Shown piece by piece: positions 36,401 to 63,520 of a stretch of DNA of 64,000 nt. Below the pieces are notes generated by a model. It did not search any database, was not told the DNA's origin, and saw only the letters and a list, made by a program, of their open reading frames with translations. The DNA lies in assembly GCA_037349105.1 (NCBI GenBank), contig JAYJMM010000114.1, positions 3,959,501 through 4,023,500 of the forward strand, read 5' to 3'. This stretch comes from Limnomonas spitsbergensis. Its lineage: Eukaryota > Chlorophyta > Chlorophyceae > Chlamydomonadales. The number at the start of each line of letters is the position of its first letter. The stretch's first letter is position 1. The position numbers and the translations under genes were made by a program.

Positions 36401-39400
36401 TAAGGAGACCTTCAGCCAGACATAACCGCGTTGATTTTAGGTCAGCCTGCAGACCAGGGCTCCGGGTGCAGCACGCCCTGCTGCTCAGGCCGCCGGCCGT
36501 AGAGCGTAGGCCCGTCAAGTGTTTGTCCCAATCGGCCCAGCAGTGGTTCGCTGATCGGGTGCGTGGTCAGGTGGGCACTGGAAAAATACTAAGGCCTTGA
36601 CCCTCCAGCTTTCCTCTACTTTTTTTGTGCAAGGTACAGGTACCGGTACTCTGATTCTCAAAAAAAATCAATCAAGGTGAAGAAGACCGTCGAGAAGGGG
36701 TCCTACAAGTCCCGAAATCAAGTGGCAAAGCAAGAACAGGCATATTGAGATTCACGGCATATCTGTCCGAAGCTGGCTTCGCCGGTTTTGCCCCCTCCCC
36801 CTCGGCCCTTTCCTGCAGGTGGGATGCTCTGGCGTGCTGATCGGCCGGGACACCGTCCTCACTGCAGCACACTGCGTGTTCAGCCTCAGCGAAGAGGCCT
36901 GGTACACCAACATCACCTTTGCGCCGGGCAGGTGCGCTGGCACCTACTGAAGGGTTTAGAGTTGAGGATTTAAGGCCTGGTACGCCAACATCACCTTTGC
37001 GCCGGGCAGGTGCGCTGGCACCTACTGAAGGGTTTAGAGTTGAGGATTTAAGGCCTGGTACACCAACATCACCTTTGCGCCGGGCAGGTGCGCTGGCACC
37101 TACTGAAGGGTTTAGAGTTGAGGATTTAAGGCCTGGTACGCCAACATCACCTTTGCGCCGGGCAGGTGCGCTGGCACCTACTGAAGGGTTTAGAGTTGAG
37201 GATTTGAGGCCTGGTACACCAACATCACCTTTGCGCCGGGCAGGTGCGCTGGCACCTACTGAAGGGTTTAGAGTTGAGGATTTAAGGCCTGGTACACCAA
37301 CATCACCTTTGCGCCGGGCAGGTGCGCTGGCATCTACTGAAGGGTTTAGAGTTGAGGATTTAAGGCCTGGTACACCAACATCACCTTTGCGCCGGGCAGG
37401 TGCGCTGGCACCTACTGAAGGGTTTAGAGTTGAGGATTTAAGGCCTGGTACACCAACATCACCTTTGCGCCGGGCAGGTGCGCTGGCACCTACTGAAGGG
37501 TTTAGAGTTGAGGATTTAAGGCCTGGTACGCCAACATCACCTTTGCGCCGGGCAGGTGCGCTGGCACCTACTGAAGGGTTTAGAGTTGAGGATTTAAGGC
37601 CTGGTACGCCAACATCACCTTTGCGCCGGGCAGGTGCGCTGGCACCTACTGAAGGGTTTAGAGTTGAGGATTTGAGGCCTGGTACACCAACATCACCTTT
37701 GCGCCGGGCAGGTGCGCTGGCACCTACTGAAGGGTTTAGAGTTGAGGATTTAAGGCCTGGTACGCCAACATCACCTTTGCGCCGGGCAGGTGCGCTGGCA
37801 CCTACTGAAGGGTTTAGAGTTGAGGATTTAAGGCCTGGTACGCCAACATCACCTTTGCGCCGGGCAGGTGCGCTGGCACCTACTGAAGGGTTTAGAGTTG
37901 AGGATTTAAGGCCTGGTACGCCAACATCACCTTTGCGCCGGGCAGGTGCGCTGGCACCTACTGAAGGGTTTAGAGTTGAGGATTTAAGGCCTGGTACGCC
38001 AACATCACCTTTGCGCCGGGCAGGTGCGCTGGCACCTACTGAAGGGTTTAGAGTTGAGGATTTGAGGCCTGGTACACCAACATCACCTTTGCGCCGGGCA
38101 GGTGCGCTGGCACCTACTGAAGGGTTTAGAGTTGAGGATTTAAGGCCTGGTACGCCAACATCACCTTTGCGCCGGGCAGGTGCGCTGGCACCTACTGAAG
38201 GGTTTAGAGTTGAGGATTTAAGGCCTGGTACGCCAACATCACCTTTGCGCCGGGCAGGTGCGCTGGCACCTACTGAAGGGTTTAGAGTTGAGGATTTGAG
38301 GCCTGGTACACCAACATCACCTTTGCGCCGGGCAGGTGCGCTGGCGCCTACTGAAGGGTTTAGAGTTGAGGATTTAAGGCCTGGTACGCCAACATCACCT
38401 TTGCGCCGGGCAGGTGCGCTGGCACCTACTGAAGGGTTTAGAGTTGAGGATTTAAGGCCTGGTACACCAACATCACCTTTGCGCCGGGCAGGTGCGCTGG
38501 CACCTACTGAAGGGTTTAGAGTTGAGGATTTAAGGCCTGGTACGCCAACATCACCTTTGCGCCGGGCAGGTGCGCTGGCACCTACTGAAGGGTTTAGAGT
38601 TGAGGATTTAAGGCCTGGTACGCCAACATCACCTTTGCGCCGGGCAGGTGCGCTGGCACCTACTGAAGGGTTTAGAGTTGAGGATTTAAGGCCTGGTACG
38701 CCAACATCACCTTTGCGCCGGGCAGGTGCGCTGGCACCTACTGAAGGGTTTAGAGTTGAGGATTTGAGGCCTGGTACACCAACATCACCTTTGCGCCGGG
38801 CAGGTGCGCTGGCACCTACTGAAGGGTTTAGAGTTGAGGATTTAAGGCCTGGTACACCAACATCACCTTTGCGCCGGGCAGGTGCGCTGGCACCTACTGA
38901 AGGGTTTAGAGTTGAGGATTTAAGGCCTGGTACACCAACATCACCTTTGCGCCGGGCAGGTGCGCTGGCACCTACTGAAGGGTTTAGAGTTGAGGATTTA
39001 AGGCCTGGTACACCAACATCACCTTTGCGCCGGGCAGGTGCGCTGGCACCTACTGAAGGGTTTAGAGTTGAGGATTTAAGGCCTGGTACACCAACATCAC
39101 CTTTGCGCCGGGCAGGTGCGCTGGCACCTACTGAAGGGTTTAGAGTTGAGGATTTAAGGCCTGGTACGCCAACATCACCTTTGCGCCGGGCAGGTGCGCT
39201 GGCACCTACTGAAGGGTTTAGAGTTGAGGATTTGAGGCCTGGTACACCAACATCACCTTTGCGCCGGGCAGGTGCGCTGGCACCTACTGAAGGGTTTAGA
39301 GTTGAGGATTTAAGGCCTGGTACGCCAACATCACCTTTGCGCCGGGCAGGTGCGCTGGCACCTACTGAAGGGTTTAGAGTTGAGGATTTAAGGCCTGGTA

Positions 39401-42400
39401 CGCCAACATCACCTTTGCGCCGGGCAGGTGCGCTGGCACCTACTGAAGGGTTTAGAGTTGAGGATTTGAGGCCTGGTACACCAACATCACCTTTGCGCCG
39501 GGCAGGTGCGCTGGCGCCTACTGAAGGGTTTAGAGTTGAGGATTTAAGGCCTGGTACGCCAACATCACCTTTGCGCCGGGCAGGTGCGCTGGCACCTACT
39601 GAAGGGTTTAGAGTTGAGGATTTAAGGCCTGGTACACCAACATCACCTTTGCGCCGGGCAGGTGCGCTGGCACCTACTGAAGGGTTTAGAGTTGAGGATT
39701 TAAGGCCTGGTACGCCAACATCACCTTTGCGCCGGGCAGGTGCGCTGGCACCTACTGAAGGGTTTAGAGTTGAGGATTTAAGGCCTGGTACGCCAACATC
39801 ACCTTTGCGCCGGGCAGGTGCGCTGGCACCTACTGAAGGGTTTAGAGTTGAGGATTTAAGGCCTGGTACGCCAACATCACCTTTGCGCCGGGCAGGTGCG
39901 CTGGCACCTACTGAAGGGTTTAGAGTTGAGGATTTAAGGCCTGGTACACCAACATCACCTTTGCGCCGGGCAGGTGCGCTGGCACCTACTGAAGGATTTA
40001 GAGTTGAGGATTTGAGGCCTGGTACACCAACATCACCTTTGCGCCGGGCAGGTGCGCTGGCACCTACTGAAGGGTTTAGAGTTGAGGATTTAAGGCCTGG
40101 TACGCCAACATCACCTTTGCGCCGGGCAGGTGCGCTGGCACCTACTGAAGGGTTTAGAGTTGAGGATTTAAGGCCTGGTACGCCAACATCACCTTTGCGC
40201 CGGGCAGGTGCGCTGGCACCTACTGAAGGGTTTAGAGTTGAGGATTTGAGGCCTGGTACACCAACATCACCTTTGCGCCGGGCAGGTGCGCTGGCACCTA
40301 CTGAAGGGTTTAGAGTTGAGGATTTAAGGCCTGGTACACCAACATCACCTTTGCGCCGGGCAGGTGCGCTGGCACCTACTGAAGGGTTTAGAGTTGAGGA
40401 TTTAAGGCCTGGTACACCAACATCACCTTTGCGCCGGGCAGGTGCGCTGGCGCCTACTGAAGGGTTTAGAGTTGAGGATTTAAGGCCTGGTACGCCAACA
40501 TCACCTTTGCGCCGGGCAGGTGCGCTGGCACCTACTGAAGGGTTTAGAGTTGAGGATTTAAGGCCTGGTACACCAACATCACCTTTGCGCCGGGCAGGTG
40601 CGCTGGCACCTACTGAAGGGTTTAGAGTTGAGGATTTAAGGCCTGGTACGCCAACATCACCTTTGCGCCGGGCAGGTGCGCTGGCACCTACTGAAGGGTT
40701 TAGAGTTGAGGATTTAAGGCCTGGTACGCCAACATCACCTTTGCGCCGGGCAGGTGCGCTGGCACCTACTGAAGGGTTTAGAGTTGAGGATTTAAGGCCT
40801 GGTACGCCAACATCACCTTTGCGCCGGGCAGGTGCGCTGGCACCTACTGAAGGGTTTAGAGTTGAGGATTTGAGGCCTGGTACACCAACATCACCTTTGC
40901 GCCGGGCAGGTGCGCTGGCACCTACTGAAGGGTTTAGAGTTGAGGATTTAAGGCCTGGTACACCAACATCACCTTTGCGCCGGGCAGGTGCGCTGGCACC
41001 TACTGAAGGGTTTAGAGTTGAGGATTTAAGGCCTGGTACACCAACATCACCTTTGCGCCGGGCAGGTGCGCTGGCACCTACTGAAGGGTTTAGAGTTGAG
41101 GATTTAAGGCCTGGTACGCCAACATCACCTTTGCGCCGGGCAGGTGCGCTGGCACCTACTGAAGGGTTTAGAGTTGAGGATTTAAGGCCTGGTACGCCAA
41201 CATCACCTTTGCGCCGGGCAGGTGCGCTGGCACCTACTGAAGGGTTTAGAGTTGAGGATTTAAGGCCTGGTACACCAACATCACCTTTGCGCCGGGCAGG
41301 TGCGCTGGCACCTACTGAAGGGTTTAGAGTTGAGGATTTAAGGCCTGGTACGCCAACATCACCTTTGCGCCGGGCAGGTGCGCTGGCACCTACTGAAGGG
41401 TTTAGAGTTGAGGATTTAAGGCCTGGTACGCCAACATCACCTTTGCGCCGGGCAGGTGCGCTGGCGCCTACTGAAGGGTTTAGAGATGAGGATTTAAGGC
41501 CTGGTACGCCAACATCACCTTTGCGCCGGGCAGGTGCGCTGGCACCTACTGAAGGGTTTAGAGTTGAGGATTTAAGGCCTGGTACGCCAACATCACCTTT
41601 GCGCCGGGCAGGTGCGCTGGCACCTACTGAAGGGTTTAGAGTTGAGGATTTGAGGCCTGGTACACCAACATCACCTTTGCGCCGGGCAGGTGCGCTGGCG
41701 CCTACTGAAGGGTTTAGAGTTGAGGATTTAAGGCCTGGTACGCCAACATCACCTTTGCGCCGGGCAGGTGCGCTGGCACCTACTGAAGGGTTTAGAGTTG
41801 AGGATTTAAGGCCTGGTACACCAACATCACCTTTGCGCCGGGCAGGTGCGCTGGCACCTACTGAAGGGTTTAGAGTTGAGGATTTAAGGCCTGGTACGCC
41901 AACATCACCTTTGCGCCGGGCAGGTGCGCTGGCACCTACTGAAGGGTTTAGAGTTGAGGATTTAAGGCCTGGTACGCCAACATCACCTTTGCGCCGGGCA
42001 GGTGCGCTGGCACCTACTGAAGGGTTTAGAGTTGAGGATTTAAGGCCTGGTACGCCAACATCACCTTTGCGCCGGGCAGGTGCGCTGGCACCTACTGAAG
42101 GGTTTAGAGTTGAGGATTTAAGGCCTGGTACACCAACATCACCTTTGCGCCGGGCAGGTGCGCTGGCACCTACTGAAGGGTTTAGAGTTGAGGATTTGAG
42201 GCCTGGTACACCAACATCACCTTTGCGCCGGGCAGGTGCGCTGGCACCTACTGAAGGGTTTAGAGTTGAGGATTTAAGGCCTGGTACGCCAACATCACCT
42301 TTGCGCCGGGCAGGTGCGCTGGCACCTACTGAAGGGTTTAGAGTTGAGGATTTAAGGCCTGGTACGCCAACATCACCTTTGCGCCGGGCAGGTGCGCTGG

Positions 42401-45400
42401 CACCTACTGAAGGGTTTAGAGTTGAGGATTTGAGGCCTGGTACACCAACATCACCTTTGCGCCGGGCAGGTGCGCTGGCACCTACTGAAGGGTTTAGAGT
42501 TGAGGATTTAAGGCCTGGTACACCAACATCACCTTTGCGCCGGGCAGGTGCGCTGGCACCTACTGAAGGGTTTAGAGTTGAGGATTTAAGGCCTGGTACA
42601 CCAACATCACCTTTGCGCCGGGCAGGTGCGCTGGCACCTACTGAAGGGTTTAGAGTTGAGGATTTAAGGCCTGGTACGCCAACATCACCTTTGCGCCGGG
42701 CAGGTGCGCTGGCACCTACTGAAGGGTTTAGAGTTGAGGATTTAAGGCCTGGTACGCCAACATCACCTTTGCGCCGGGCAGGTGCGCTGGCACCTACTGA
42801 AGGGTTTAGAGTTGAGGATTTAAGGCCTGGTACAGCCAACATCACCTTTGCGCCGGGCAGGTGCGCTGGCACCTACTGAAGGGTTTAGAGTTGAGGATTT
42901 AAGGCCTGGTACGCCAACATCACCTTTGCGCCGGGCAGGTGCGCTGGCACCTACTGAAGGGTTTAGAGTTGAGGATTTAAGGCCTGGTACGCCAACATCA
43001 CCTTTGCGCCGGGCAGGTGCGCTGGCACCTACTGAAGGGTTTAGAGTTGAGGATTTAAGGCCTGGTACACCAACATCACCTTTGCGCCGGGCAGGTGCGC
43101 TGGCACCTACTGAAGGGTTTAGAGTTGAGGATTTAAGGCCTGGTACACCAACATCACCTTTGCGCCGGGCAGGTGCGCTGGCACCTACTGAAGGGTTTAG
43201 AGTTGAGGATTTAAGGCCTGGTACGCCAACATCACCTTTGCGCCGGGCAGGTGCGCTGGCACCTACTGAAGGGTTTAGAGTTGAGGATTTAAGGCCTGGT
43301 ACACCAACATCACCTTTGCGCCGGGCAGGTGCGCTGGCACCTACTGAAGGGTTTAGAGTTGAGGATTTAAGGCCTGGTACACCAACATCACCTTTGCGCC
43401 GGGCAGGTGCGCTGGCACCTACTGAAGGGTTTAGAGTTGAGGATTTAAGGCCTGGTACGCCAACATCACCTTTGCGCCGGGCAGGTGCGCTGGCACCTAC
43501 TGAAGGGTTTAGAGTTGAGGATTTAAGGCCTGGTACACCAACATCACCTTTGCGCCGGGCAGGTGCGCTGGCACCTACTGAAGGGTTTAGAGTTGAGGAT
43601 TTAAGGCCTGGTACGCCAACATCACCTTTGCGCCGGGCAGGTGCGCTGGCACCTACTGAAGGGTTTAGAGTTGAGGATTTAAGGCCTGGTACGCCAACAT
43701 CACCTTTGCGCCGGGCAGGTGCGCTGGCACCTACTGAAGGGTTTAGAGTTGAGGATTTGAGGCCTGGTACACCAACATCACCTTTGCGCCGGGCAGGTGC
43801 GCTGGCACCTACTGAAGGGTTTAGAGTTGAGGATTTAAGGCCTGGTACGCCAACATCACCTTTGCGCCGGGCAGGTGCGCTGGCACCTACTGAAGGGTTT
43901 AGAGTTGAGGATTTAAGGCCTGGTACACCAACATCACCTTTGCGCCGGGCAGGTGCGCTGGCACCTACTGAAGGGTTTAGAGTTGAGGATTTAAGGCCTG
44001 GTACACCAACATCACCTTTGCGCCGGGCAGGTGCGCTGGCACCTACTGAAGGGTTTAGAGTTGAGGATTTAAGGCCTGGTACGCCAACATCACCTTTGCG
44101 CCGGGCAGGTGCGCTGGCACCTACTGAAGGGTTTAGAGTTGAGGATTTAAGGCCTGGTACGCCAACATCACCTTTGCGCCGGGCAGGTGCGCTGGCACCT
44201 ACTGAAGGGTTTAGAGTTGAGGATTTAAGGCCTGGTACACCAACATCACCTTTGCGCCGGGCAGGTGCGCTGGCACCTACTGAAGGGTTTAGAGTTGAGG
44301 ATTTGAAGGCCTGGTACACCAACATCACCTTTGCGCCGGGCAGGTGCGCTGGCACCTACTGAAGGGTTTAGAGTTGAGGATTTAAGGCCTGGTACGCCAA
44401 CATCACCTTTGCGCCGGGCAGGTGCGCTGGCACCTACTGAAGGGTTTAGAGTTGAGGATTTAAGGCCTGGTACGCCAACATCACCTTTGCGCCGGGCAGG
44501 TGCGCTGGCACCTACTGAAGGGTTTAGAGTTGAGGATTTGAGGCCTGGTACACCAACATCACCTTTGCGCCGGGCAGGTGCGCTGGCACCTACTGAAGGG
44601 TTTAGAGTTGAGGATTTAAGGCCTGGTACACCAACATCACCTTTGCGCCGGGCAGGTGCGCTGGCACCTACTGAAGGGTTTAGAGTTGAGGATTTAAGGC
44701 CTGGTACACCAACATCACCTTTGCGCCGGGCAGGTGCGCTGGCACCTACTGAAGGGTTTAGAGTTGAGGATTTAAGGCCTGGTACGCCAACATCACCTTT
44801 GCGCCGGGCAGGTGCGCTGGCACCTACTGAAGGGTTTAGAGTTGAGGATTTAAGGCCTGGTACGCCAACATCACCTTTGCGCCGGGCAGGTGCGCTGGCA
44901 CCTACTGAAGGGTTTAGAGTTGAGGATTTAAGGCCTGGTACACCAACATCACCTTTGCGCCGGGCAGGTGCGCTGGCACCTACTGAAGGGTTTAGAGTTG
45001 AGGATTTAAGGCCTGGTACACCAACATCACCTTTGCGCCGGGCAGGTGCGCTGGCACCTACTGAAGGGTTTAGAGTTGAGGATTTAAGGCCTGGTACACC
45101 AACATCACCTTTGCGCCGGGCAGGTGCGCTGGCACCTACTGAAGGGTTTAGAGTTGAGGATTTAAGGCCTGGTACACCAACATCACCTTTGCGCCGGGCA
45201 GGTGCGCTGGCACCTACTGAAGGGTTTAGAGTTGAGGATTTAAGGCCTGGTACGCCAACATCACCTTTGCGCCGGGCAGGTGCGCTGGCACCTACTGAAG
45301 GGTTTAGAGTTGAGGATTTAAGGCCTGGTACGCCAACATCACCTTTGCGCCGGGCAGGTGCGCTGGCACCTACTGAAGGGTTTAGAGTTGAGGATTTGAG

Positions 45401-48400
45401 GCCTGGTACACCAACATCACCTTTGCGCCGGGCAGGTGCGCTGGCACCTACTGAAGGGTTTAGAGTTGAGGATTTAAGGCCTGGTACACCAACATCACCT
45501 TTGCGCCGGGCAGGTGCGCTGGCACCTACTGAAGGGTTTAGAGTTGAGGATTTAAGGCCTGGTACACCAACATCACCTTTGCGCCGGGCAGGTGCGCTGG
45601 CACCTACTGAAGGGTTTAGAGTTGAGGATTTGAGGCCTGGTACACCAACATCACCTTTGCGCCGGGCAGGTGCGCTGGCACCTACTGAAGGGTTTAGAGT
45701 TGAGGATTTAAGGCCTGGTACGCCAACATCACCTTTGCGCCGGGCAGGTGCGCTGGCACCTACTGAAGGGTTTAGAGTTGAGGATTTAAGGCCTGGTACA
45801 CCAACATCACCTTTGCGCCGGGCAGGTGCGCTGGCACCTACTGAAGGGTTTAGAGTTGAGGATTTAAGGCCTGGTACGCCAACATCACCTTTGCGCCGGG
45901 CAGGTGCGCTGGCACCTACTGAAGGGTTTAGAGTTGAGGATTTAAGGCCTGGTACGCCAACATCACCTTTGCGCCGGGCAGGTGCGCTGGCACCTACTGA
46001 AGGGTTTAGAGTTGAGGATTTGAGGCCTGGTACACCAACATCACCTTTGCGCCGGGCAGGTGCGCTGGCACCTACTGAAGGGTTTAGAGTTGAGGATTTA
46101 AGGCCTGGTACACCAACATCACCTTTGCGCCGGGCAGGTGCGCTGGCACCTACTGAAGGGTTTAGAGTTGAGGATTTAAGGCCTGGTACACCAACATCAC
46201 CTTTGCGCCGGGCAGGTGCGCTGGCACCTACTGAAGGGTTTAGAGTTGAGGATTTAAGGCCTGGTACAGCCAACATCACCTTTGCGCCGGGCAGGTGCGC
46301 TGGCACCTACTGAAGGGTTTAGAGTTGAGGATTTAAGGCCTGGTACGCCAACATCACCTTTGCGCCGGGCAGGTGCGCTGGCACCTACTGAAGGGTTTAG
46401 AGTTGAGGATTTAAGGCCTGGTACGCCAACATCACCTTTGCGCCGGGCAGGTGCGCTGGCACCTACTGAAGGGTTTAGAGTTGAGGATTTGAGGCCTGGT
46501 ACACCAACATCACCTTTGCGCCGGGCAGGTGCGCTGGCACCTACTGAAGGGTTTAGAGTTGAGGATTTAAGGCCTGGTACACCAACATCACCTTTGCGCC
46601 GGGCAGGTGCGCTGGCACCTACTGAAGGGTTTAGAGTTGAGGATTTAAGGCCTGGTACACCAACATCACCTTTGCGCCGGGCAGGTGCGCTGGCACCTAC
46701 TGAAGGGTTTAGAGTTGAGGATTTAAGGCCTGGTACACCAACATCACCTTTGCGCCGGGCAGGTGCGCTGGCACCTACTGAAGGGTTTAGAGTTGAGGAT
46801 TTAAGGCCTGGTACACCAACATCACCTTTGCGCCGGGCAGGTGCGCTGGCACCTACTGAAGGGTTTAGAGTTGAGGATTTAAGGCCTGGTACGCCAACAT
46901 CACCTTTGCGCCGGGCAGGTGCGCTGGCACCTACTGAAGGGTTTAGAGTTGAGGATTTGAGGCCTGGTACACCAACATCACCTTTGCGCCGGGCAGGTGC
47001 GCTGGCACCTACTGAAGGGTTTAGAGTTGAGGATTTAAGGCCTGGTACGCCAACATCACCTTTGCGCCGGGCAGGTGCGCTGGCACCTACTGAAGGGTTT
47101 AGAGTTGAGGATTTAAGGCCTGGTACGCCAACATCACCTTTGCGCCGGGCAGGTGCGCTGGCACCTACTGAAGGGTTTAGAGTTGAGGATTTGAGGCCTG
47201 GTACACCAACATCACCTTTGCGCCGGGCAGGTGCGCTGGCACCTACTGAAGGGTTTAGAGTTGAGGATTTAAGGCCTGGTACGCCAACATCACCTTTGCG
47301 CCGGGCAGGTGCGCTGGCACCTACTGAAGGGTTTAGAGTTGAGGATTTAAGGCCTGGTACACCAACATCACCTTTTGCGCCGGGCAGGTGCGCTGGCACC
47401 TACTGAAGGGTTTAGAGTTGAGGATTTAAGGCCTGGTACGCCAACATCACCTTTGCGCCGGGCAGGTGCGCTGGCACCTACTGAAGGGTTTAGAGTTGAG
47501 GATTTAAGGCCTGGTACGCCAACATCACCTTTGCGCCGGGCAGGTGCGCTGGCACCTACTGAAGGGTTTAGAGTTGAGGATTTAAGGCCTGGTACGCCAA
47601 CATCACCTTTGCGCCGGGCAGGTGCGCTGGCACCTACTGAAGGGTTTAGAGTTGAGGATTTGAGGCCTGGTACACCAACATCACCTTTGCGCCGGGCAGG
47701 TGCGCTGGCAGCCTACTGAAGGGTTTAGAGTTGAGGATTTAAGGCCTGGTACGCCAACATCACCTTTGCGCCGGGCAGGTGCGCTGGCACCTACTGAAGG
47801 GTTTAGAGTTGAGGATTTAAGGCCTGGTACACCAACATCACCTTTGCGCCGGGCAGGTGCGCTGGCACCTACTGAAGGGTTTAGAGTTGAGGATTTAAGG
47901 CCTGTTACGCCAACATCACCTTTGCGCCGGGCAGGTGCGCTGGCACCTACTGAAGGGTTTAGAGTTGAGGATTTAAGGCCTGGTACGCCAACATCACCTT
48001 TGCGCCGGGCAGGTGCGCTGGCACCTACTGAAGGGTTTAGAGTTGAGGATTTAAGGCCTGGTACGCCAACATCACCTTTGCGCCGGGCAGGTGCGCTGGC
48101 ACCTACTGAAGGGTTTAGAGTTGAGGATTTGAGGCCTGGTACACCAACATCACCTTTGCGCCGGGCAGGTGCGCTGGCACCTACTGAAGGGTTTAGAGTT
48201 GAGGATTTAAGGCCTGGTACACCAACATCACCTTTGCGCCGGGCAAGGTGCGCTGGCACCTACTGAAGGGTTTAGAGTTGAGGATTTAAGGCCTGGTACA
48301 CCAACATCACCTTTGCGCCGGGCAGGTGCGCTGGCACCTACTGAAGGGTTTAGAGTTGAGGATTTAAGGCCTGGTACACCAACATCACCTTTGCGCCGGG

Positions 48401-51400: not shown

Positions 51401-54400
51401 GAGGATTTAAGGCCTGGTACACCAACATCACCTTTGCGCCGGGCAGGTGCGCTGGCACCTACTGAAGGGTTTAGAGTTGAGGATTTAAGGCCTGGTACGC
51501 CAACATCACCTTTGCGCCGGGCAGGTGCGCTGGCACCTACTGAAGGGTTTAGAGTTGAGGATTTGAGGCCTGGTACACCAACATCACCTTTGCGCCGGGC
51601 AGGTGCGCTGGCACCTACTGAAGGGTTTAGAGTTGAGGATTTGAGGCCTGGTACGCCAACATCACCTTTGCGCCGGGCAGGTGCGCTGGCACCTACTGAA
51701 GGGTTTATAGTTGAGGATTTGAGGCCTGGTACACCAACATCACCTTTGCGCCGGGCAGGTGTGCTGGCGCCTACTGAAGGGTTTAGAGTTGAGGATTTAA
51801 GGCCTGGTACGCCAACATCACCTTTGCGCCGGGCAGGTGTGCTGGCACCTACTGAAGGGTTTAGAGTTGAGGATTTAAGGCCTGGTACGCCAACATCACC
51901 TTTGCGCCGGGCAGGTGCGCTGGCACCTACTGAAGGGTTTAGAGTTGAGGATTTAAGGCCTGGTACGCCAACATCACCTTTGCGCCGGGCAGGTGCGCTG
52001 GCACCTACTGAAGGGTTTACAGTTGAGGATTTGAGGCCTGGTACGCCAACATCACCTTTGCGCCGGGCAGGTGCGCTGGCACCTACTGAAGGGTTTAGAG
52101 TTGAGGATTTGAGGCCTGGTACACCAACATCACCTTTGCGCCGGGCAGGTGCGCTGGCACCTACTGAAGGGTTTAGAGTTGAGGATTTAAGGCCTGGTAC
52201 GCCAACATCACCTTTGCGCCGGGCAGGTGCGCTGGCACCTACTGAAGGGTTTAGAGTTGAGGATTTGAGGCCTGGTACATCAACATCACCTTTGCCCCGG
52301 GCAGGTGCGCTGGCACCTACTGAAGGGTTTAGAGTTGAGGATTTAAGGCCTGGTACACCAACATCACCTTTGCGCCGGGCAGGTGCGCTGGCACCTACTG
52401 AAGGGTTTAGAGTTGAGGATTTAAGGCCTGGTACACCAACATCACCTTTGCGCCGGGCAGGTGCGCTGGCACCTACTGAAGGGTTTAGAGTTGAGGATTT
52501 AAGGCCTGGTACGCCAACATCACCTTTGCGCCGGGCAGGTGCGCTGGCGCCTACTGAAGGGTTTAGAGTTGAGGATTTGAGGCCTGGTACACCAACATCA
52601 CCTTTGCGCCGGGCAGGTGCGCTGGCACCTACTGAAGGGTTTAGAGTTGAGGATTTAAGGCCTGGTACGCCAACATCACCTTTGCGCCGGGCAGGTGCGC
52701 TGGCACCTACTGAAGGGTTTAGAGTTGAGGATTTAAGGCCTGGTACACCAACATCACCTTTGCGCCGGGCAGGTGCGCTGGCACCTACTGAAGGGTTTAG
52801 AGTTGAGGATTTAAGGCCTGGTACGCCAACATCACCTTTGCGCCGGGCAGGTGCGCTGGCACCTACTGAAGGGTTTAGAGTTGAGGATTTAAGGCCTGGT
52901 ACGCCAACATCACCTTTGCGCCGGGCAGGTGCGCTGGCACCTACTGAAGGGTTTAGAGTTGAGGATTTAAGGCCTGGTACACCAACATCACCTTTGCGCC
53001 GGGCAGGTGCGCTGGCACCTACTGAAGGGTTTAGAGTTGAGGATTTAAGGCCTGGTACGCCAACATCACCTTTGCGCCGGGCAGGTGCGCTGGCACCTAC
53101 TGAAGGGTTTAGAGTTGAGGATTTAAGGCCTGGTACACCAACATCACCTTTGCGCCGGGCAGGTGCGCTGGCACCTACTGAAGGGTTTATAGTTGAGGAT
53201 TTAAGGCCTGGTACACCAACATCACCTTTGCGCCGGGCAGGTGCGCTGGCGCCTACTGAAGGGTTTAGAGTTGAGGATTTAAGGCCTGGTACGCCAACAT
53301 CACCTTTGCGCCGGGCAGGTGTGCTGGCACCTACTGAAGGGTTTAGAGTTGAGGATTTAAGGCCTGTTACGCCAACATCACCTTTGCGCCGGGCAGGTGC
53401 GCTGGCACCTACTGAAGGGTTTAGAGTTGAGGATTTAAGGCCTGGTACGCCAACATCACCTTTGCGCCGGGCAGGTGCGCTGGCACCTACTGAAGGGTTT
53501 AGAGTTGAGGATTTGAGGCCTGGTACGCCAACATCACCTTTGCGCCGGGCAGGTGCGCTGGCACCTACTGAAGGGTTTAGAGTTGAGGATTTGAGGCCTG
53601 GTACACCAACATCACCTTTGCGCCGGGCAGGTGCGCTGGCACCTACTGAAGGGTTTAGAGTTGAGGATTTGAGGCCTGGTACACCAACATCACCTTTGCC
53701 CCGGGCAGGTGCGCTGGCACCTACTGAAGGGTTTAGAGTTGAGGATTTAAGGCCTGGTACACCAACATCACCTTTGCGCCGGGCAGGTGCGCTGGCGCCT
53801 ACTGAAGGGTTTAGAGTTGAGGATTTAAGGCCTGGTACGCCAACATCACCTTTGCGCCGGGCAGGTGCGCTGGCACCTACTGAAGGGTTTAGAGTTGAGG
53901 ATTTGAGGCCTGGTACACCAACATCACCTTTGCCCCGGGCAGGTGTGCTGGCACCTACTGAAGGGTTTAGAGTTGAGGATTTAAGGCCTGGTACACCAAC
54001 ATCACCTTTGCGCCGGGCAGGTGCGCTGGCACCTACTGAAGGGTTTAGAGTTGAGGATTTGAGGCCTGGTACACCAACATCACCTTTGCGCCGGGCAGGT
54101 GCGCTGGCACCTACTGAAGGGTTTAGAGTTGAGGATTTGAGGCCTGGTACACCAACATCACCTTTGCGCCGGGCAGGTGCGCTGGCACCTACTGAAGGGT
54201 TTAGAGTTGAGGATTTGAGGCCTGGCACACCAACATCACCTTTGCGCCGGGCAGGTGCGCTGGCACCTACTGAAGGGTTTAGAGTTGAGGATTTAAGGCC
54301 TGGTACGCCAACATCACCTTTGCGCCGGGCAGGTGCGCTGGCACCTACTGAAGGGTTTAGAGTTGAGGATTTAAGGCCTGGTACGCCAACATCACCTTTG

Positions 54401-57400
54401 CGCCGGGCAGGTGCGCTGGCACCTACTGAAGGGTTTAGAGTTGAGGATTTAAGGCCTGGTACGCCAACATCACCTTTGCGCCGGGCAGGTGCGCTGGCGC
54501 CTACTGAAGGGTTTAGAGTTGAGGATTTAAGGCCTGGTACGCCAACATCACCTTTGCGCCGGGCAGGTGCGCTGGCACCTACTGAAGGGTTTAGAGTTGA
54601 GGATTTGAGGCCTGGTACACCAACATCACCTTTGCGCCGGGCAGGTGCGCTGGCACCTACTGAAGGGTTTAGAGTTGAGGATTTAAGGCCTGGTACACCA
54701 ACATCACCTTTGCGCCGGGCAGGTGCGCTGGCACCTACTGAAGGGTTTAGAGTTGAGGATTTAAGGCCTGGTACGCCAACATCACCTTTGCGCCGGGCAG
54801 GTGCGCTGGCACCTACTGAAGGGTTTAGAGTTGAGGATTTAAGGCCTGGTACACCAACATCACCTTTGCGCCGGGCAGGTGCGCTGGCACCTACTGAAGG
54901 GTTTATAGTTGAGGATTTAAGGCCTGGTACACCAACATCACCTTTGCGCCGGGCAGGTGCGCTGGCGCCTACTGAAGGGTTTAGAGTTGAGGATTTAAGG
55001 CCTGGTACGCCAACATCACCTTTGCGCCGGGCAGGTGTGCTGGCACCTACTGAAGGGTTTAGAGTTGAGGATTTAAGGCCTGTTACGCCAACATCACCTT
55101 TGCGCCGGGCAGGTGCGCTGGCACCTACTGAAGGGTTTAGAGTTGAGGATTTAAGGCCTGGTACGCCAACATCACCTTTGCGCCGGGCAGGTGCGCTGGC
55201 ACCTACTGAAGGGTTTAGAGTTGAGGATTTGAGGCCTGGTACGCCAACATCACCTTTGCGCCGGGCAGGTGCGCTGGCACCTACTGAAGGGTTTAGAGTT
55301 GAGGATTTGAGGCCTGGTACACCAACATCACCTTTGCGCCGGGCAGGTGCGCTGGCACCTACTGAAGGGTTTAGAGTTGAGGATTTGAGGCCTGGTACAC
55401 CAACATCACCTTTGCCCCGGGCAGGTGCGCTGGCACCTACTGAAGGGTTTAGAGTTGAGGATTTAAGGCCTGGTACACCAACATCACCTTTGCGCCGGGC
55501 AGGTGCGCTGGCGCCTACTGAAGGGTTTAGAGTTGAGGATTTAAGGCCTGGTACGCCAACATCACCTTTGCGCCGGGCAGGTGCGCTGGCACCTACTGAA
55601 GGGTTTAGAGTTGAGGATTTGAGGCCTGGTACACCAACATCACCTTTGCCCCGGGCAGGTGTGCTGGCACCTACTGAAGGGTTTAGAGTTGAGGATTTAA
55701 GGCCTGGTACACCAACATCACCTTTGCGCCGGGCAGGTGCGCTGGCACCTACTGAAGGGTTTAGAGTTGAGGATTTGAGGCCTGGTACACCAACATCACC
55801 TTTGCGCCGGGCAGGTGCGCTGGCACCTACTGAAGGGTTTAGAGTTGAGGATTTGAGGCCTGGTACACCAACATCACCTTTGCGCCGGGCAGGTGCGCTG
55901 GCACCTACTGAAGGGTTTAGAGTTGAGGATTTGAGGCCTGGTACACCAACATCACCTTTGCGCCGGGCAGGTGCGCTGGCACCTACTGAAGGGTTTAGAG
56001 TTGAGGATTTAAGGCCTGGTACGCCAACATCACCTTTGCGCCGGGCAGGTGCGCTGGCACCTACTGAAGGGTTTAGAGTTGAGGATTTAAGGCCTGGTAC
56101 GCCAACATCACCTTTGCGCCGGGCAGGTGCGCTGGCACCTACTGAAGGGTTTAGAGTTGAGGATTTAAGGCCTGGTACGCCAACATCACCTTTGCGCCGG
56201 GCAGGTGCGCTGGCGCCTACTGAAGGGTTTAGAGTTGAGGATTTAAGGCCTGGTACGCCAACATCACCTTTGCGCCGGGCAGGTGCGCTGGCACCTACTG
56301 AAGGGTTTAGAGTTGAGGATTTGAGGCCTGGTACACCAACATCACCTTTGCGCCGGGCAGGTGCGCTGGCACCTACTGAAGGGTTTAGAGTTGAGGATTT
56401 GAGGCCTGGTACACCAACATCACCTTTGCGCCGGGCAGGTGCGCTGGCACCTACTGAAGGGTTTAGAGTTGAGGATTTAAGGCCTGGTACGCCAACATCA
56501 CCTTTGCGCCGGGCAGGTGCGCTGGCACCTACTGAAGGGTTTAGAGTTGAGGATTTAAGGCCTGGTACGCCAACATCACCTTTGCGCCGGGCAGGTGCGC
56601 TGGCACCTACTGAAGGGTTTAGAGTTGAGGATTTAAGGCCTGGTACACCAACATCACCTTTGCGCCGGGCAGGTGCGCTGGCACCTACTGAAGGGTTTAG
56701 AGTTGAGGATTTGAGGCCTGGTACACCAACATCACCTTTGCGCCGGGCAGGTGCGCTGGCGCCTGCTGAAGGGTTTAGAGTTGAGGATTTAAGGCCTGGT
56801 ACGCCAACATCACCTTTGCGCCGGGCAGGTGCGCTGGCACCTACTGAAGGGTTTAGAGTTGAGGATTTAAGGCCTGGTACGCCAACATCACCTTTGCGCC
56901 GGGCAGGTGCGCTGGCGCCTACTGAAGGGTTTAGAGTTGAGGATTTAAGGCCTGGTACGCCAACATCACCTTTGCGCCGGGCAGGTGCGCTGGCACCTAC
57001 TGAAGGGTTTAGAGTTGAGGATTTGAGGCCTGGTACACCAACATCACCTTTGCGCCGGGCAGGTGCGCTGGCACCTACTGAAGGGTTTAGAGTTGAGGAT
57101 TTGAGGCCTGGTACACCAACATCACCTTTGCGCCGGGCAAGTGCGCTGGCACCTACTGAAGGGTTTAGAGTTGAGGATTTAAGGCCTGGTACGCCAACAT
57201 CACCTTTGCGCCGGGCAGGTGCGCTGGCACCTACTGAAGGGTTTAGAGTTGAGGATTTGAGGCCTGGTACATCAACATCACCTTTGCCCCGGGCAGGTGC
57301 GCTGGCACCTACTGAAGGGTTTAGAGTTGAGGATTTAAGGCCTGGTACACCAACATCACCTTTGCGCCGGGCAGGTGCGCTGGCACCTACTGAAGGGTTT

Positions 57401-60400
57401 AGAGTTGAGGATTTAAGGCCTGGTACACCAACATCACCTTTGCGCCGGGCAGGTGCGCTGGCACCTACTGAAGGGTTTAGAGTTGAGGATTTAAGGCCTG
57501 GTACGCCAACATCACCTTTGCGCCGGGCAGGTGCGCTGGCGCCTACTGAAGGGTTTAGAGTTGAGGATTTGAGGCCTGGTACACCAACATCACCTTTGCG
57601 CCGGGCAGGTGCGCTGGCACCTACTGAAGGGTTTAGAGTTGAGGATTTAAGGCCTGGTACGCCAACATCACCTTTGCGCCGGGCAGGTGCGCTGGCACCT
57701 ACTGAAGGGTTTAGAGTTGAGGATTTAAGGCCTGGTACACCAACATCACCTTTGCGCCGGGCAGGTGCGCTGGCACCTACTGAAGGGTTTAGAGTTGAGG
57801 ATTTAAGGCCTGGTACGCCAACATCACCTTTGCGCCGGGCAGGTGCGCTGGCACCTACTGAAGGGTTTAGAGTTGAGGATTTAAGGCCTGGTACGCCAAC
57901 ATCACCTTTGCGCCGGGCAGGTGCGCTGGCACCTACTGAAGGGTTTAGAGTTGAGGATTTGAGGCCTGGTACGCCAACATCACCTTTGCGCCGGGCAGGT
58001 GCGCTGGCGCCTGCTGAAGGGTTTAGAGTTGAGGATTTAAGGCCTGGTACACCAACATCACCTTTGCGCCGGGCAGGTGCGCTGGCACCTACTGAAGGGT
58101 TTAGAGTTGAGGATTTAAGGCCTGGTACACCAACATCACCTTTGCGCCGGGCAGGTGCGCTGGCACCTACTGAAGGGTTTAGAGTTGAGGATTTAAGGCC
58201 TGGTACGCCAACATCACCTTTGCGCCGGGCAGGTGCGCTGGCACCTACTGAAGGGTTTAGAGTTGAGGATTTAAGGCCTGGTACACCAACATCACCTTTG
58301 CGCCGGGCAGGTGCGCTGGCACCTACTGAAGGGTTTATAGTTGAGGATTTAAGGCCTGGTACACCAACATCACCTTTGCGCCGGGCAGGTGCGCTGGCGC
58401 CTACTGAAGGGTTTAGAGTTGAGGATTTAAGGCCTGGTACGCCAACATCACCTTTGCGCCGGGCAGGTGTGCTGGCACCTACTGAAGGGTTTAGAGTTGA
58501 GGATTTAAGGCCTGTTACGCCAACATCACCTTTGCGCCGGGCAGGTGCGCTGGCACCTACTGAAGGGTTTAGAGTTGAGGATTTAAGGCCTGGTACGCCA
58601 ACATCACCTTTGCGCCGGGCAGGTGCGCTGGCACCTACTGAAGGGTTTAGAGTTGAGGATTTGAGGCCTGGTACGCCAACATCACCTTTGCGCCGGGCAG
58701 GTGCGCTGGCACCTACTGAAGGGTTTAGAGTTGAGGATTTGAGGCCTGGTACACCAACATCACCTTTGCGCCGGGCAGGTGCGCTGGCACCTACTGAAGG
58801 GTTTAGAGTTGAGGATTTGAGGCCTGGTACACCAACATCACCTTTGCCCCGGGCAGGTGCGCTGGCACCTACTGAAGGGTTTAGAGTTGAGGATTTGAGG
58901 CCTGGTACACCAACATCACCTTTGCCCCGGGCAGGTGCGCTGGCACCTACTGAAGGGTTTAGAGTTGAGGATTTAAGGCCTGGTACGCCAACATCACCTT
59001 TGCGCCGGGCAGGTGCGCTGGCACCTACTGAAGGGTTTAGAGTTGAGGATTTGAGGCCTGGTACACCAACATCACCTTTGCCCCGGGCAGGTGTGCTGGC
59101 ACCTACTGAAGGGTTTAGAGTTGAGGATTTAAGGCCTGGTACACCAACATCACCTTTGCGCCGGGCAGGTGCGCTGGCACCTACTGAAGGGTTTAGAGTT
59201 GAGGATTTGAGGCCTGGTACACCAACATCACCTTTGCGCCGGGCAGGTGCGCTGGCACCTACTGAAGGGTTTAGAGTTGAGGATTTGAGGCCTGGTACAC
59301 CAACATCACCTTTGCGCCGGGCAGGTGCGCTGGCACCTACTGAAGGGTTTAGAGTTGAGGATTTGAGGCCTGGTACACCAACATCACCTTTGCGCCGGGC
59401 AGGTGCGCTGGCACCTACTGAAGGGTTTAGAGTTGAGGATTTAAGGCCTGGTACGCCAACATCACCTTTGCGCCGGGCAGGTGCGCTGGCACCTACTGAA
59501 GGGTTTAGAGTTGAGGATTTAAGGCCTGGTACGCCAACATCACCTTTGCGCCGGGCAGGTGCGCTGGCACCTACTGAAGGGTTTAGAGTTGAGGATTTAA
59601 GGCCTGGTACACCAACATCACCTTTGCGCCGGGCAGGTGCGCTGGCACCTACTGAAGGGTTTAGAGTTGAGGATTTGAGGCCTGGTACACCAACATCACC
59701 TTTGCGCCGGGCAGGTGCGCTGGCGCCTGCTGAAGGGTTTAGAGTTGAGGATTTAAGGCCTGGTACGCCAACATCACCTTTGCGCCGGGCAGGTGCGCTG
59801 GCACCTACTGAAGGGTTTAGAGTTGAGGATTTAAGGCCTGGTACGCCAACATCACCTTTGCGCCGGGCAGGTGCGCTGGCACCTACTGAAGGGTTTAGAG
59901 TTGAGGATTTGAGGCCTGGTACACCAACATCACCTTTGCGCCGGGCAGGTGCGCTGGCACCTACTGAAGGGTTTAGAGTTGAGGATTTAAGGCCTGGTAC
60001 GCCAACATCACCTTTGCGCCGGGCAGGTGCGCTGGCACCTACTGAAGGGTTTAGAGTTGAGGATTTGAGGCCTGGTACGCCAACATCACCTTTGCGCCGG
60101 GCAGGTGCGCTGGCACCTACTGAAGGGTTTAGAGTTGAGGATTTAAGGCCTGGTACGCCAACATCACCTTTGCGCCGGGCAGGTGCGCTGGCACCTACTG
60201 AAGGGTTTAGAGTTGAGGATTTAAGGCCTGGTACGCCAACATCACCTTTGCGCCGGGCAGGTGCGCTGGCACCTACTGAAGGGTTTAGAGTTGAGGATTT
60301 AAGGCCTGGTACGCCAACATCACCTTTGCGCCGGGCAGGTGCGCTGGCACCTACTGAAGGGTTTAGAGTTGAGGATTTAAGGCCTGGTACGCCAACATCA

Positions 60401-63400
60401 CCTTTGCGCCGGGCAGGTGCGCTGGCACCTACTGAAGGGTTTAGAGTTGAGGATTTAAGGCCTGGTACGCCAACATCACCTTTGCGCCGGGCAGGTGTGC
60501 TGGCACCTACTGAAGGGTTTAGAGTTGAGGATTTAAGGCCTGGTACACCAACATCACCTTTGCGCCGGGCAGGTGCGCTGGCACCTACTGAAGGGTTTAG
60601 AGTTGAGGATTTAAGGCCTGGTACGCCAACATCACCTTTGCGCCGGGCAGGTGCGCTGGCACCTACTGAAGGGTTTAGAGTTGAGGATTTAAGGCCTGGT
60701 ACACCAACATCACCTTTGCGCCGGGCAGGTGCGCTGGCACCTACTGAAGGGTTTATAGTTGAGGATTTAAGGCCAGGTACGCCAACATCACCTTTGCGCC
60801 GGGCAGGTGCGCTGGCACCTACTGAAGGGTTTAGAGTTGAGGATTTAAGGCCTGGTACGCCAACATTACCTTTGCGCCGGGCAGGTGCGCTGGCACCTAC
60901 TGAAGGGTTTAGAGTTGAGGATTTAAGGCCTGGTACGCCAACATTACCTTTGCGCCGGGCAGGTGTGCTGGCACCTACTGAAGGGTTTAGAGTTGAGGAT
61001 TTAAGGCCTGGTACGCCAACATTACCTTTGCGCCGGGCAGGTGTGCTGGCACCTGCGGTCATGGTTCAGGGTTAGAGTTAAGGATTTAGGGTGCAAGGCA
61101 TGGAGCTTTAACTTCGCCTTTGCGCCGGGCAGGTGCGCTTACACCTGGTTAAGGATTTAGGGTTCAAGGCATGGAGCTCCAACTTCGCCTTTGCGCCGGG
61201 CAGGTGCGCTTACACCTGGTTAAGGAACTCGGGTTTTAAGTATGGATCCCCAAGCCACTCCTTTGCGCCGGGCAGGTGCGCCACACCTACTTAAGGGTGG
61301 AGAGTTTAGGATTTAAGGCACGGAGCTCCAACCACCTCCTTGCACCCAGCAAGTGCGCCCACTCCTAGTCAAGGGTTGAGGGTTTTAAGATTTAGGGTTC
61401 AAGGTAGCTGCCGAGTTGCGTATGCTCAAATGGGCTCATAACTTGCTTTCACACTTTTTCAATGCAGGCTCCGCATATTGGACAATTACGTGTCCTTCGG
61501 AGCAGACCCCTTTGGGAACGTCCCTTGGCGATCCGCCACTATATTTGCAGCCTACCCGGAATCCTCCACCTCGGCGCAGCTGGACTACGACCTGGCCATT
61601 GTGCGCCTGGCGTCGCCGGTGGGGCTGCTGACCGGTTGGATGGGCGCTTCAGCAGAGTGTCAGGTCGGTTTGGGTTCAGGGTCTGGCAGTTAGGGTTCAG
61701 GGGCTGGCAGTCAGGGTTTAGGGTTTAGGTGGGGATCGATGTTGAGCGTTAAGGGTTCAGGGGGGATGCTCACCGGCTGGATGGATCTTAGGCACAGTGT
61801 CAGGTGGGGATGGGGGCTAGGGTTTGAGGTTCAGGTGGAGATCATGACCTGGCCATTGTGCTCCAAGCGTCACCGGTAGGTCTCCTGACTGGCTGGGGGG
61901 GGGTGTCATCAGAATGTCAGATGGATGAAGGGTTAAGAGTAAGGGTCAAGTGTTAAAAAAAAAATCCAGGGGGATGTTAAGGTTTGTCAGCATAAGGTGG
62001 GGATGGGGTCTAGGGTTTGAGGCGGGCCTGGTGTCACCGGTGGGGCTGCTGACTGGCTGGATGGTTGCGTCAGCAGCATGTCAATTAAGGGTTTGAAGTA
62101 AGGATTGTCGCATGTTTAAGAGCATGATCAGCTCAAGTCCTGTTAGGATGCATCCTAGCCTCTGCTTAGGGTTGAGCCCCCTCTTGTGGTTTAGACCCTC
62201 TTGGGGTTAGGCCCCTGTTGTGGTTTAGCCCCGCTAAAACCCCTCATGTGGTTTAGCCCTGCATGAGGTTACGTTCCACTTAGGGCGGGATCTGGTTGGG
62301 GTTTCGCCCCTCTTGGGATTAAGGCATTTAGGGTTCAGGCCCGACTTGTATGTGATCACCTGCAGCCCTGACAGTGCCCCCCCCCCATCCTCCTTGCCTA
62401 CAGCCCTGACAGTGCCCCCCCCCCCCCCCTTCATCGCTGCCTGCAGCCTGTCAGCAGCGTCAACCTGACCACTGCGTTGTATCCCTTGCACTTTGGTTTT
62501 TACACCGCTGGGTCAATGTGATCACCTGCAGCCCCGTGAGTGCACCCCCCCTCTCCTCCCTGCGCTGCCTGTAGCCCTGACGTTGCCCCCCCATTCCCTC
62601 CATGCGCTATCTGCAGGCCTGACAGTGCCTCACCCCCCCCTCCCCTCCCTGCGCTACCTGCAGCCCTGACAGTGCCCCCTCTCCGCTCCTCCTTGCCTGC
62701 AGCCTGGCAGCAGCGTCAACCTAACCAGCGCGGGGTATCCCTTGTACTTCGGAGAGGAAGTCAATGTATGCGTCAACACTTCCTGTGCTGTCAAGTATGC
62801 TCCAGAGGTGAGTCTCGTACAGGTATGCGTCCGTACAGGCGTACATCATTGATATCTGGTGTGTGACCTGGACTTCAAATCGTGACCCCTAAACCTAGAC
62901 CCATAAACCGTTAACCTAATTATGCCCTTACGTGAAAATCGGCGTTGTTTATTTTAATGCGCACCATGTCACTTTTGGCAGTTTGCTGGGCGGCCACCGC
63001 TGGGTCAATTGGGACCAAACCAGGACTGGTCTAGGACCAGCGGCTCAGGCAGCAGGGCTGGCTGCACCCGTCCCCCCACCAGCGGCCCAGGCAGCAGGGC
63101 TTGCTGCACCCATCCCCCCCCCTCAGCCTTAGACTTTGATGCAGCTGAATTGTGACTGGAGCGCCCCAGAAATTGAATCAGTGTCATGCGTCCATGATTC
63201 ATAAATGTGCCCTTGTGGGCTGGAAATATAATCCTGTTGCGAGGGTGTTGCATGGGCTGCAAAACGGAATCCTGTTGCACGGGTGTTGCACGAGCTGGAA
63301 ACATAATCCTGTTGAACAGGTGTTGTGCAAAGTACTTTGATCTCATGCGCGGATGTGAAACCTGACGTGCTGTTGCATCCTCGCTGTGCGGCGTCAGGGT

Positions 63401-63520
63401 GAAGTCCCTGACAGCGGCTCTGCCAGCAACAGTTGCAACAAGCGGATGTTGTCACACTATTGCCAAGCCATCCAGGGCCAATCCGGATCCCCGATGTACG
63501 ACGACTCGAAATTCGTACAG
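30451..63520 (+). CDS. Secreted proline-rich trypsin-like serine protease (3' end beyond window)
   Basis: Seven exons join in phase: 30451-30733, 31068-33149, 34216-35180, 36819-36931, 61468-61663, 62703-62807 and 63398-63520, for 1289 codons so far. The start ATG opens a signal peptide (MAMFVALLLILLSRPCLF). Then come 8-residue SDGLHGG-type repeats (~178-235), a hydroxyproline-type SPPPP-rich stalk (~480-650), Ser-rich linkers, a second Pro-rich segment (~824-864) and a Ser/Gly tract (~920-1013). An S1-type protease domain starts near 1085 (CPTLAYPFSAIGQL). Triad: His ~1128 in GVLIGRDTVLTAAHC, Asp ~1189 in LDYDLAIVRL, Ser ~1277 in QGQSGSPMYD. The protein is probably a wall- or matrix-bound endopeptidase; its substrate is unknown. 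The His and Asp exons are separated by a 24.5-kb intron filled by a 78-bp array. The next exon probably starts near 63757, 63847 or 63937. Confidence 0.8.
31316..31495 (+). repeat. 24-bp coding minisatellite
   Basis: Seven to eight copies of GATGGCCTGCATGGCGGTCG plus CTCT inside exon 2 of the protease gene, encoding SDGLHGG/S repeats in the chosen frame. Confidence 0.8.
33165..33312 (+). repeat. 31-bp tandem repeat just inside an intron
   Basis: Four to five copies of GTATGAGGCGGGTGCTTCTT followed by ACGGGCAGGGG, beginning about 25 bp after the donor at 33150. Confidence 0.85.
33693..34022 (+). repeat. 14-bp tandem repeat
   Basis: About 23 copies of AACCAGGGCGGTAT (or GACCAGGGCGGTAT) in the intron between protease exons 2 and 3. 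The array is not related to the flanking exons by eye. Confidence 0.9.
35219..35272 (+). repeat. Interstitial telomere-type CCCTAAA repeat
   Basis: Runs of CCCTAAA (with CCCTTAA and CCTTAAA variants) starting about 40 bp after the donor at 35181 in the protease gene. Confidence 0.85.
36240..36382 (+). repeat. Short A-rich tandem repeat
   Basis: Copies of AACTCCAGATAAAAACTCC and CATAAAACTCCAGA in the intron before the catalytic His exon. Just upstream (36050-36150) ATCCAGATCC-type repeats occur. Confidence 0.75.
36895..61052 (+). repeat. 24-kb array of ~310 units of 78 bp carrying an exon end and splice donor
   Basis: The first unit begins inside the catalytic His exon (36895). Each unit holds a copy of the last 37 exon nt (AGGCCTGGTACACCAACATC ... 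GCGCCGGGCAG), the donor GTGCGC, and 41 intronic nt including CCTACTGAAGGGTTTAGAGT and GAGGATTTAAGG. From 36895 to the truncated last unit at 61004, the spacing is exactly 309 x 78 plus 7. The surplus comes from seven single-base insertions near 42833, 44306, 46268, 47373, 47711, 48246 and 51197. Common variants are TACACC/TACGCC and GATTTAAGG/GATTTGAGG. Rarer ones (GTGTGCTGG, GCCTGCTGAA, TTTATAGTT, TTTGCCCCGG, CCTGTTACG) lie mainly after 49 kb. Read in the true exon frame, every unit stops at TAC TGA shortly after the donor. The array fills almost the whole intron. Confidence 0.97.
61053..61405 (+). repeat. Diverged edge copies of the 78-bp unit
   Basis: Four decayed units follow the array. 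Three keep CTTTGCGCCGGGCAGGTGCG (near 61113, 61190 and 61260), and the last has CCTTGCACCCAGCAAGTGCG. They include AAGGATTTAGGGTTCAAGG, closer to a TTTAGGG repeat than the array consensus. Confidence 0.85.
61740..62085 (+). repeat. Three degenerate copies of the catalytic Asp exon's 3' end
   Basis: After the exon ends at 61663, related segments occur near 61767 (ACCGGCTGGATGG, then CAGTGTCAGGTGGG), 61849 (GACCTGGCCATTGTGC, then CACCGGTAGG) and 62022 (GTCACCGGTGGGGCTGCTGA, then TGGCTGGATGG). The first copy keeps a GT after the exon-like end. Confidence 0.75.
62340..62702 (+). repeat. Upstream copies of an acceptor region and the next exon's start
   Basis: CTGCAGCCCTGACAGTGCCC followed by poly-C recurs five to six times. 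At 62446 a diverged copy of the exon at 62703 starts (CCTGTCAGCAGCGTCAACCT, then TATCCCTTGCACTTTGG). Confidence 0.75.
63045..63170 (+). repeat. Dispersed intronic repeat, copy 4
   Basis: CAGGCAGCAGGGCTTGCTGC, then ACCC..., then GATGCAGCTGAATTGTGACT, with an extra tandem copy of the GGCTCAGGCAGCAGGGC part. It lies in the intron after protease exon 6. Confidence 0.55.

Follow-up and report, generated by a model that had tools for sequence, protein, structure and literature searches.

A stretch of 64,000 nucleotides (nt) of the Limnomonas spitsbergensis genome (contig 114, 3959501-4023500), referred to below as the window, was analysed, and genome-wide searches covered 260,226,709 bases in 124 contigs. 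The window carries a six-exon protease gene whose exons join in one unbroken frame and encode the catalytic residues His, Asp and Ser. The protein matched Pfam Trypsin_2 and Trypsin, and 13 related proteins were retrieved with E<=0.001. The motifs TAAHC, DYDLAIVRL and GQSGSP are taken to be the catalytic triad. Between the His exon (E2) and the Asp exon (E3), where a model's earlier note on this DNA had placed it, lies intron I2, most of which is a tandem array of about 310 copies of the E2/I2 junction (Table 1).

I2 begins with gtgcgc and ends with tgcag. E2 ends in phase 2 and its last codon is completed by E3, in agreement with the phase fit proposed earlier. The I2 acceptor, which follows the decayed units of the array, scored at the 92nd percentile of true acceptor sites. 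The homologues P0001 and P0002 carry the residues of the E2 end (N-I-T-F-A-P-G-R) and extend past the junction; because they keep and pass these residues, the exonic half of the repeat unit is real coding sequence. Reading through from E2 leads to a stop a few codons beyond the donor, and a stop in the exon frame was found in 310 of 315 steps when the array was walked unit by unit. E2 and E3 most likely belong to one gene, and the possibility raised in the earlier note, that the flanking exons come from different genes, is countered by the two homologues. With GT...AG ends and with the frame and the homologous protein continuous across it, I2 has the features of a spliceosomal intron, and its removal from the transcript is predicted. 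The search for RNA families gave none above the gathering score in the window. In the Chlamydomonas eustigma gene model P0003, about 10 residues across the E2/E3 junction were absent; the intron at this position may be unusual there too, or it may be mispredicted. C. eustigma is placed near Limnomonas, and introns of the merged annotation are given a mean length of 788 bp (PMC11228838).

Tandem Repeats Finder (TRF) detected the array at 36895-61054 with a period of 78, 309.7 copies, a 98% match and a score of 46087. E2 ends in ...CCGGGCAG, and the 78-bp unit consisted of the last 37 nt of E2 and the first 41 nt of I2, with an exact split. The sequence CAGGTG occurred 311 times in 36895-61467 (297 as CAGGTGCG and 14 as CAGGTGTG), a count that takes in both the real donor and the decayed tail. 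The 315-step walk gave 305 units differing from the consensus by at most 12%, with 36 distinct sequences, and CAGGT was present in 311 steps. Both the copy number of about 310 and the unit composition claimed earlier were borne out, and the residues of the exonic part recur in P0001 and P0002. The claimed span of 36895..61467 was correct in its start, and 61467 is the end of the intron, but the regular array stops at 61054 and only decayed units continue to about 61,300-61,400. A 38-nt junction core was matched 307 times in the window with at most three mismatches (0 in 100 shuffles); when run on the whole genome, this search counted 307 forward and 0 reverse matches. Since the two totals are equal, the unit is confined to the window. 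These results confirmed that the 24.5-kb intron with its array of junction copies is real and excluded chance.

Table 1. Exons, intron, arrays and junction copies of the protease gene (window coordinates)
Feature	Position	Strand	Evidence
Exon E1 region, with provisional 5' end; ends ...TCAGAG/gtgcgt (slash, exon-intron boundary)	34203..35180	+	Open reading frame (ORF) 34203-35234; frame runs on into E2
Exon E2, 113 nt, catalytic His (TAAHC)	36819..36931	+	Translation, Pfam Trypsin_2/Trypsin, homologues
78-bp tandem array, 309.7 copies, first unit starting within E2	36895..61054	+	TRF, unit walk
Intron I2, 24,536 nt, GT...AG, phase 2; 311 CAGGTG donor-like sites with the exon edge, real one included	36932..61467	+	
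Decayed junction units bordering the array on its 3' side (TRF 61077-61296, period 71)	61055..61400	+	TRF
Exon E3, 196 nt, catalytic Asp (DYDLAIVRL)	61468..61663	+	Translation, homologues
Three decayed copies of the E3 end in its own intron: 61762-61814 spans the junction; 61846-61920 and 62026-62083 exon end only	61762..62083	+	blastn; protein hit C114:4021337-4021417
Acceptor-side copy of E4 (intron end and exon start), ~81% identical	62398..62496	+	blastn
Exon E4	62703..62807	+	Translation
Exon E5, catalytic Ser (GQSGSP)	63398..63520	+	Translation
Decayed donor-side copy of the E5 end	63556..63609	+	blastn
90-bp acceptor-side array, 6.0 copies in all, running past the window to the last exon at L001:708-815	63738..64000	+	TRF, blastn

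The array has head-to-tail units of high identity and shows signs of copy turnover, as a minisatellite does. A block of 16 units was repeated at a lag of 22 units, while the longest block in 100 shuffles was 8 units. The first unit, at the exon edge, was identical to 87 of the 314 others. Homogeneity was highest in the 124 exon-proximal units, with 5-6 distinct sequences per 31 units against 9-14 beyond them; mismatch increased with unit position (rho 0.25), and units 125-186 include some that are shifted by single-base indels. Sixteen of the 37 exon-derived columns and nine of the 41 intron-derived columns were variable. Block duplication and homogeneity of this kind are usual in minisatellites and arise by unequal exchange or slippage. 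We consider it probable that a minisatellite, started by a duplication straddling the edge of E2, has enlarged the spliceosomal intron I2, with the proximal donor intact and probably used. A tandem duplication of a segment across the E2 end and the intron start would have seeded the minisatellite, and block duplication with homogenisation would then have expanded it. The array would be tolerated as all new copies fall on the intron side; because each lies there, the coding exon and its own donor stay untouched, and selection would retain the cases with copies on that side.

Junction copies were then sought in other genes with an edge test, in which each exon edge was compared with its own intron. 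The blind sample consisted of 13 conserved genes with 56 introns, chosen without regard to repeats, five of them partly for long introns. Its PPP part came from 10 loci, from which L038 (partial) and L041 (no coherent frame) were dropped and in which a spurious 2-nt exon of L040 was removed by hand; its Rab part was four loci chosen for long introns, not a full sample; and CCT6 was chosen among several genes for its size and long introns. Copies spanning a junction were found in 6 of the 11 introns of at least 500 nt (L039 introns 1 and 2, L044 intron 1, CCT6 introns 2, 3 and 5) and in none of the 45 shorter ones. The other long introns (L040 intron 2, L042 intron 2, L043 intron 3, CCT6 introns 6 and 7) gave no spanning copy in this test. 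Part of this contrast is an effect of length itself, since a short intron offers little space for copies. A gene from arbitrarily chosen pieces of the genome, with seven exons and a clean frame of 309 residues, which its motifs lead us to regard as a HISN2-type bifunctional histidine-biosynthesis gene, had spanning copies in three of its six introns; because it was noticed through its repeat, it was kept with the protease apart from the blind sample. Mismatched controls gave 0/848 spanning hits and one non-spanning hit, a second set gave 0/664, and exon-interior control windows gave 0/13 (blind) and 0/6 (protease and HISN2). A copine-like gene in L018 was inspected by eye and stands outside all counts.

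The arrays in other genes were made from exon ends of those genes themselves. In the phosphatase gene L039, presumably of the Kelch type, intron 1 (1942 nt) contained a donor array of 23.6 copies of 46 bp, running from the exon end GACTATGTGGACAG/GTGCGG onward. Its paralogue L040 has an intron at the same codon and in the same phase, with 297 nt and no copy; because L040 keeps this plain form, the simplest reading is that the L039 array enlarged a pre-existing intron. CCT6 intron 5 has a donor array whose GT lacks a preceding AG (AACTCG/gtaagg). Arrays beginning at exon ends, which the earlier note had suggested looking for in other genes, are present in L039 and CCT6, and HISN2 and L044 likewise have copies spanning a junction. 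The data support the view that protease I2 is the most extreme member of a class with further cases in unrelated genes of the alga, at acceptors as well as donors. In the Rab-type gene L042, a 41-bp array of three copies (L042:2193-2316) stops at the acceptor AG outside the exon and was not counted as spanning.

Several points weigh against an enlargement of I2 from its exon edge. Copies of junction windows were about as frequent as copies of windows inside these introns, with 6/22 against 72/330 in the blind sample. Five of the 11 long blind introns had no spanning copy; among the 10 long introns that the protease and HISN2 have together, 4 had none. The pair of introns with and without an array comes from L039 and L040, not from the protease, the array length is taken from a long-read assembly, and the donor choice is derived from protein homology and frame. 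The window counts for the protease and HISN2 were 8/20 at junctions (7/18 without the 24.5-kb intron) and 107/270 internally, with that intron omitted from the background. Spanning copies on the reverse strand were found for 1/330 internal windows in the blind sample and 8/270 in the protease and HISN2; the copies were mostly direct. Targeting of junctions by the duplication process was not supported, as junction and internal windows were matched about equally, and because internal windows are copied about as often, the junction needs no special property. The duplication would not be aimed at junctions; long introns rich in tandem duplication would simply not spare the boundary.

An earlier, looser scan used fuzzy exon ends derived from ORFs (115 segments, the protease omitted) and gave copies at 5/45 donor and 20/108 acceptor candidates, some of the latter stemming from a tandem transposase-like repeat. 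Its controls gave 13/115 segment middles and 129/460 random positions, the random ones drawn partly from the 24-kb array. In five pieces of the genome, donor-like motifs were not enriched in minisatellite units (4/67 against 5.9 expected). The telomere-like heptamers TTTAGGG/CCCTAAA were present in 10 of 20 long introns, with 62 occurrences in 22.7 kb (the 24.5-kb intron omitted), once in 7.8 kb of short introns and not at all in 11.5 kb of exons; they may be a seed for duplication. Two other repeats were noted. A minisatellite of 751 copies of 43 bp, 32 kb long, lies in L020-L023 (contig 105, 501806-534111), exceeds the I2 array and is followed by a 49-bp array. L013-L014 (contig 114, ~3014598-3025111) contains five tandem units of 2,448 bp, identical over the compared stretches, with an ORF that we take to be transposase-like from its motif.

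Under enlargement from the exon edge, the exon-proximal donor at 36931/36932 would be joined to 61468. It would probably be selected by exon definition, in which the E2 acceptor lying 113 nt upstream takes part, or by first-come binding. Only this first donor, joined directly to E3, gives the protein, because later donors keep the stop that follows it. The remaining 310 donor-like sites would be near-equivalent competitors whose use would be corrected, degraded or suppressed. A different outcome, compatible with the favoured origin and in our judgement unlikely, is stepwise removal at dual-specific sites: each CAG/GT, present in nearly every unit, would act as acceptor and donor, and the array would leave as successive 78-nt introns separated by exons of zero length. 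Whichever donor acted first, the same mRNA would result, because leftover units could be removed as whole units. By score, each AG/GT of the array is plausible as donor and as acceptor, and on this reading it would be used both ways: the unit AG/GT lay at the 87th percentile of true donors and the 85th of true acceptors, and its T variant at the 55th and 72nd. These values come from site matrices of 60 introns of this genome, the scored intron among them, and the three exon positions of the acceptor matrix, with the consensus GTG, favour AG/GTG sites. Scored as acceptors, the donor sites in HISN2 introns 3 and 6 and in L044 intron 1 reached the 57th percentile, but the L039 sites were weaker (23rd-35th) and so was HISN2 intron 4 (15th). 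A length of 78 nt is plausible among the predicted introns of about 60-115 nt in the sampled genes, and the human UBC gene is a precedent, in which tandem dual-specific sites are used and give isoforms in unit steps (PMC10809524). Stepwise removal is nevertheless unnecessary for tolerance elsewhere, as the GT of the CCT6 intron 5 donor array is not preceded by AG, and acceptor-side arrays would generally not be removable by units, as reasoned from their sequence. Also rather doubtful is the broader proposal that junction duplication is a general route of intron lengthening in this lineage, AG/GT ends giving self-correcting introns, removal by whole units and near-free growth; an array could then grow almost freely, because any donor choice would converge on the same mRNA.

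The true array could be much shorter if it had been inflated during assembly, which we consider improbable. The assembly is described as made from continuous long reads (CLR) with Canu, and at 260 Mb it exceeds the 19-mer genome estimate of 233 Mb, but the read L50 of 32.9 kb is longer than the array and the mean coverage is 63x (PMC11228838). Moreover, the 36 unit types of the array follow one another in an ordered way and include a block duplication, unlike a uniform consensus, and elsewhere there are small arrays of this kind for which no long reads are needed. It is very unlikely that the repeats act as RNA, for example by holding the U1 small nuclear ribonucleoprotein (snRNP) or by slowing protease expression. 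The 311 CAGGTG sites in one intron and their high donor score would suit such a role; however, neither half of the unit shows obvious constraint in its variable columns, and arrays of widely differing sizes are present in other conserved genes.

A coding minisatellite, or flanking exons from different genes, would accord with a unit length divisible by 3 and with the long open frames that cross the array in other frames. Both were rejected, and we give them hardly any weight: stops in the exon frame recur through the array, read-through from E2 stops at once, and homologues without any such repeat continue beyond the junction. Origin from a mobile intron-generating element (introner) was rejected as well and has a negligible probability. 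Many near-identical units carrying splice signals are what such an element would leave, but all 307 genomic matches of the unit core lie in the window instead of being dispersed in many genes, and the arrays of other genes were built from their own exon ends.

The enlargement of I2 resembles several known systems in part. Intronic minisatellites and variable number tandem repeats share its period, copy number, homogeneity and block duplication, but the I2 array starts inside an exon and each unit copies a splice junction. Introners are dispersed across genes, whereas the 78-bp unit is restricted to one locus. Ratchet points of recursive splicing known so far are few and far apart, and are not tandem copies of an exon end. 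Introners, as named in PMC4974935 and PMC3629103, are repeated sequences with splice signals, as in I2, and ratchet points are described as juxtaposing acceptor and donor within a long intron, as the array does (PMC8605326). In the tandem genomic duplication model of intron gain (Rogers; Hellsten et al.), AGGT copies can serve as donor and acceptor, according to the passages cited (PMC3443670, PMC4974935). I2 shares with this model a tandem duplication with AGGT copies usable both ways; there, however, a new intron comes from exonic sequence (in potato, intron-exon sequence) with few copies, while in I2 an intron was enlarged from its edge, by about 310 copies of a segment that crosses the exon-intron boundary. 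Two fission yeast introns are described as consisting of tandem 24-nt repeats, the proto-splice site there being AGGC (PMC3629103). Human UBC is similar in having head-to-tail units bounded by AG/GT with a length divisible by 3; it is described with nine coding units whose use was shown by RT-PCR (reverse transcription PCR) (PMC10809524), whereas I2 has about 310 intronic units with a stop in nearly each, whose use is putative.

The components, namely minisatellites, tandem duplication at AGGT and dual-specific sites, are therefore of known kinds. In the titles, abstract openings and counts of an open library, no report was recognised of an intron carrying an array copied from its own splice junction, and neither about 310 copies of its own donor in one intron nor junction copies in 6 of 11 blind long introns were found there. 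The claim that I2 is unprecedented stands to this extent; it is not singular, as milder cases occur in unrelated genes. Splice-site choice is usually studied with few competitors of unequal strength, while here about 310 nearly identical donors lie in one intron, so that this snow alga offers a natural test of choice between identical splice sites. Other genes supply a graded series, from 1 to about 22 extra copies, together with one matched paralogous intron that has none. RNA-seq and IsoSeq are described by the genome authors (PMC11228838), and such data could tell whether exon proximity, synthesis order or stepwise correction decides the donor. The findings also bear on intron lengthening, as long introns in the sampled genes are often tandem-duplicated, often with copies of their own splice sites.

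Within the protease gene, junction-spanning copies were found in three of five introns with edges of 45 nt on either side: I2 had 313 hits, I3 one donor and one acceptor hit, and I5 one donor and five acceptor hits. With 35-nt edges, I2 had 312, I3 one acceptor, and I5 one donor and five acceptor hits. No junction-spanning copy was found in I1 or I4 with 45-nt edges. The last protease exon reads WQPLVN, while most of the intronic copies (window 63738-64000, L001:1-815), together with P0001 and P0002, read WPPLVN; comparison of these sequences suggests that WPPLVN is likely the ancestral form, kept better by the intronic copies than by the last exon. Elsewhere in the window, at 664-1054, an array of four 38-bp copies follows an exon-like segment (ACCAGAGACAG/GTGCAC) and copies its end and donor, some copies being decayed. 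At 23292-24274, an exon-like segment is followed 144 nt downstream by a donor-side copy that leads into an array of 18.9 copies of 39 bp.

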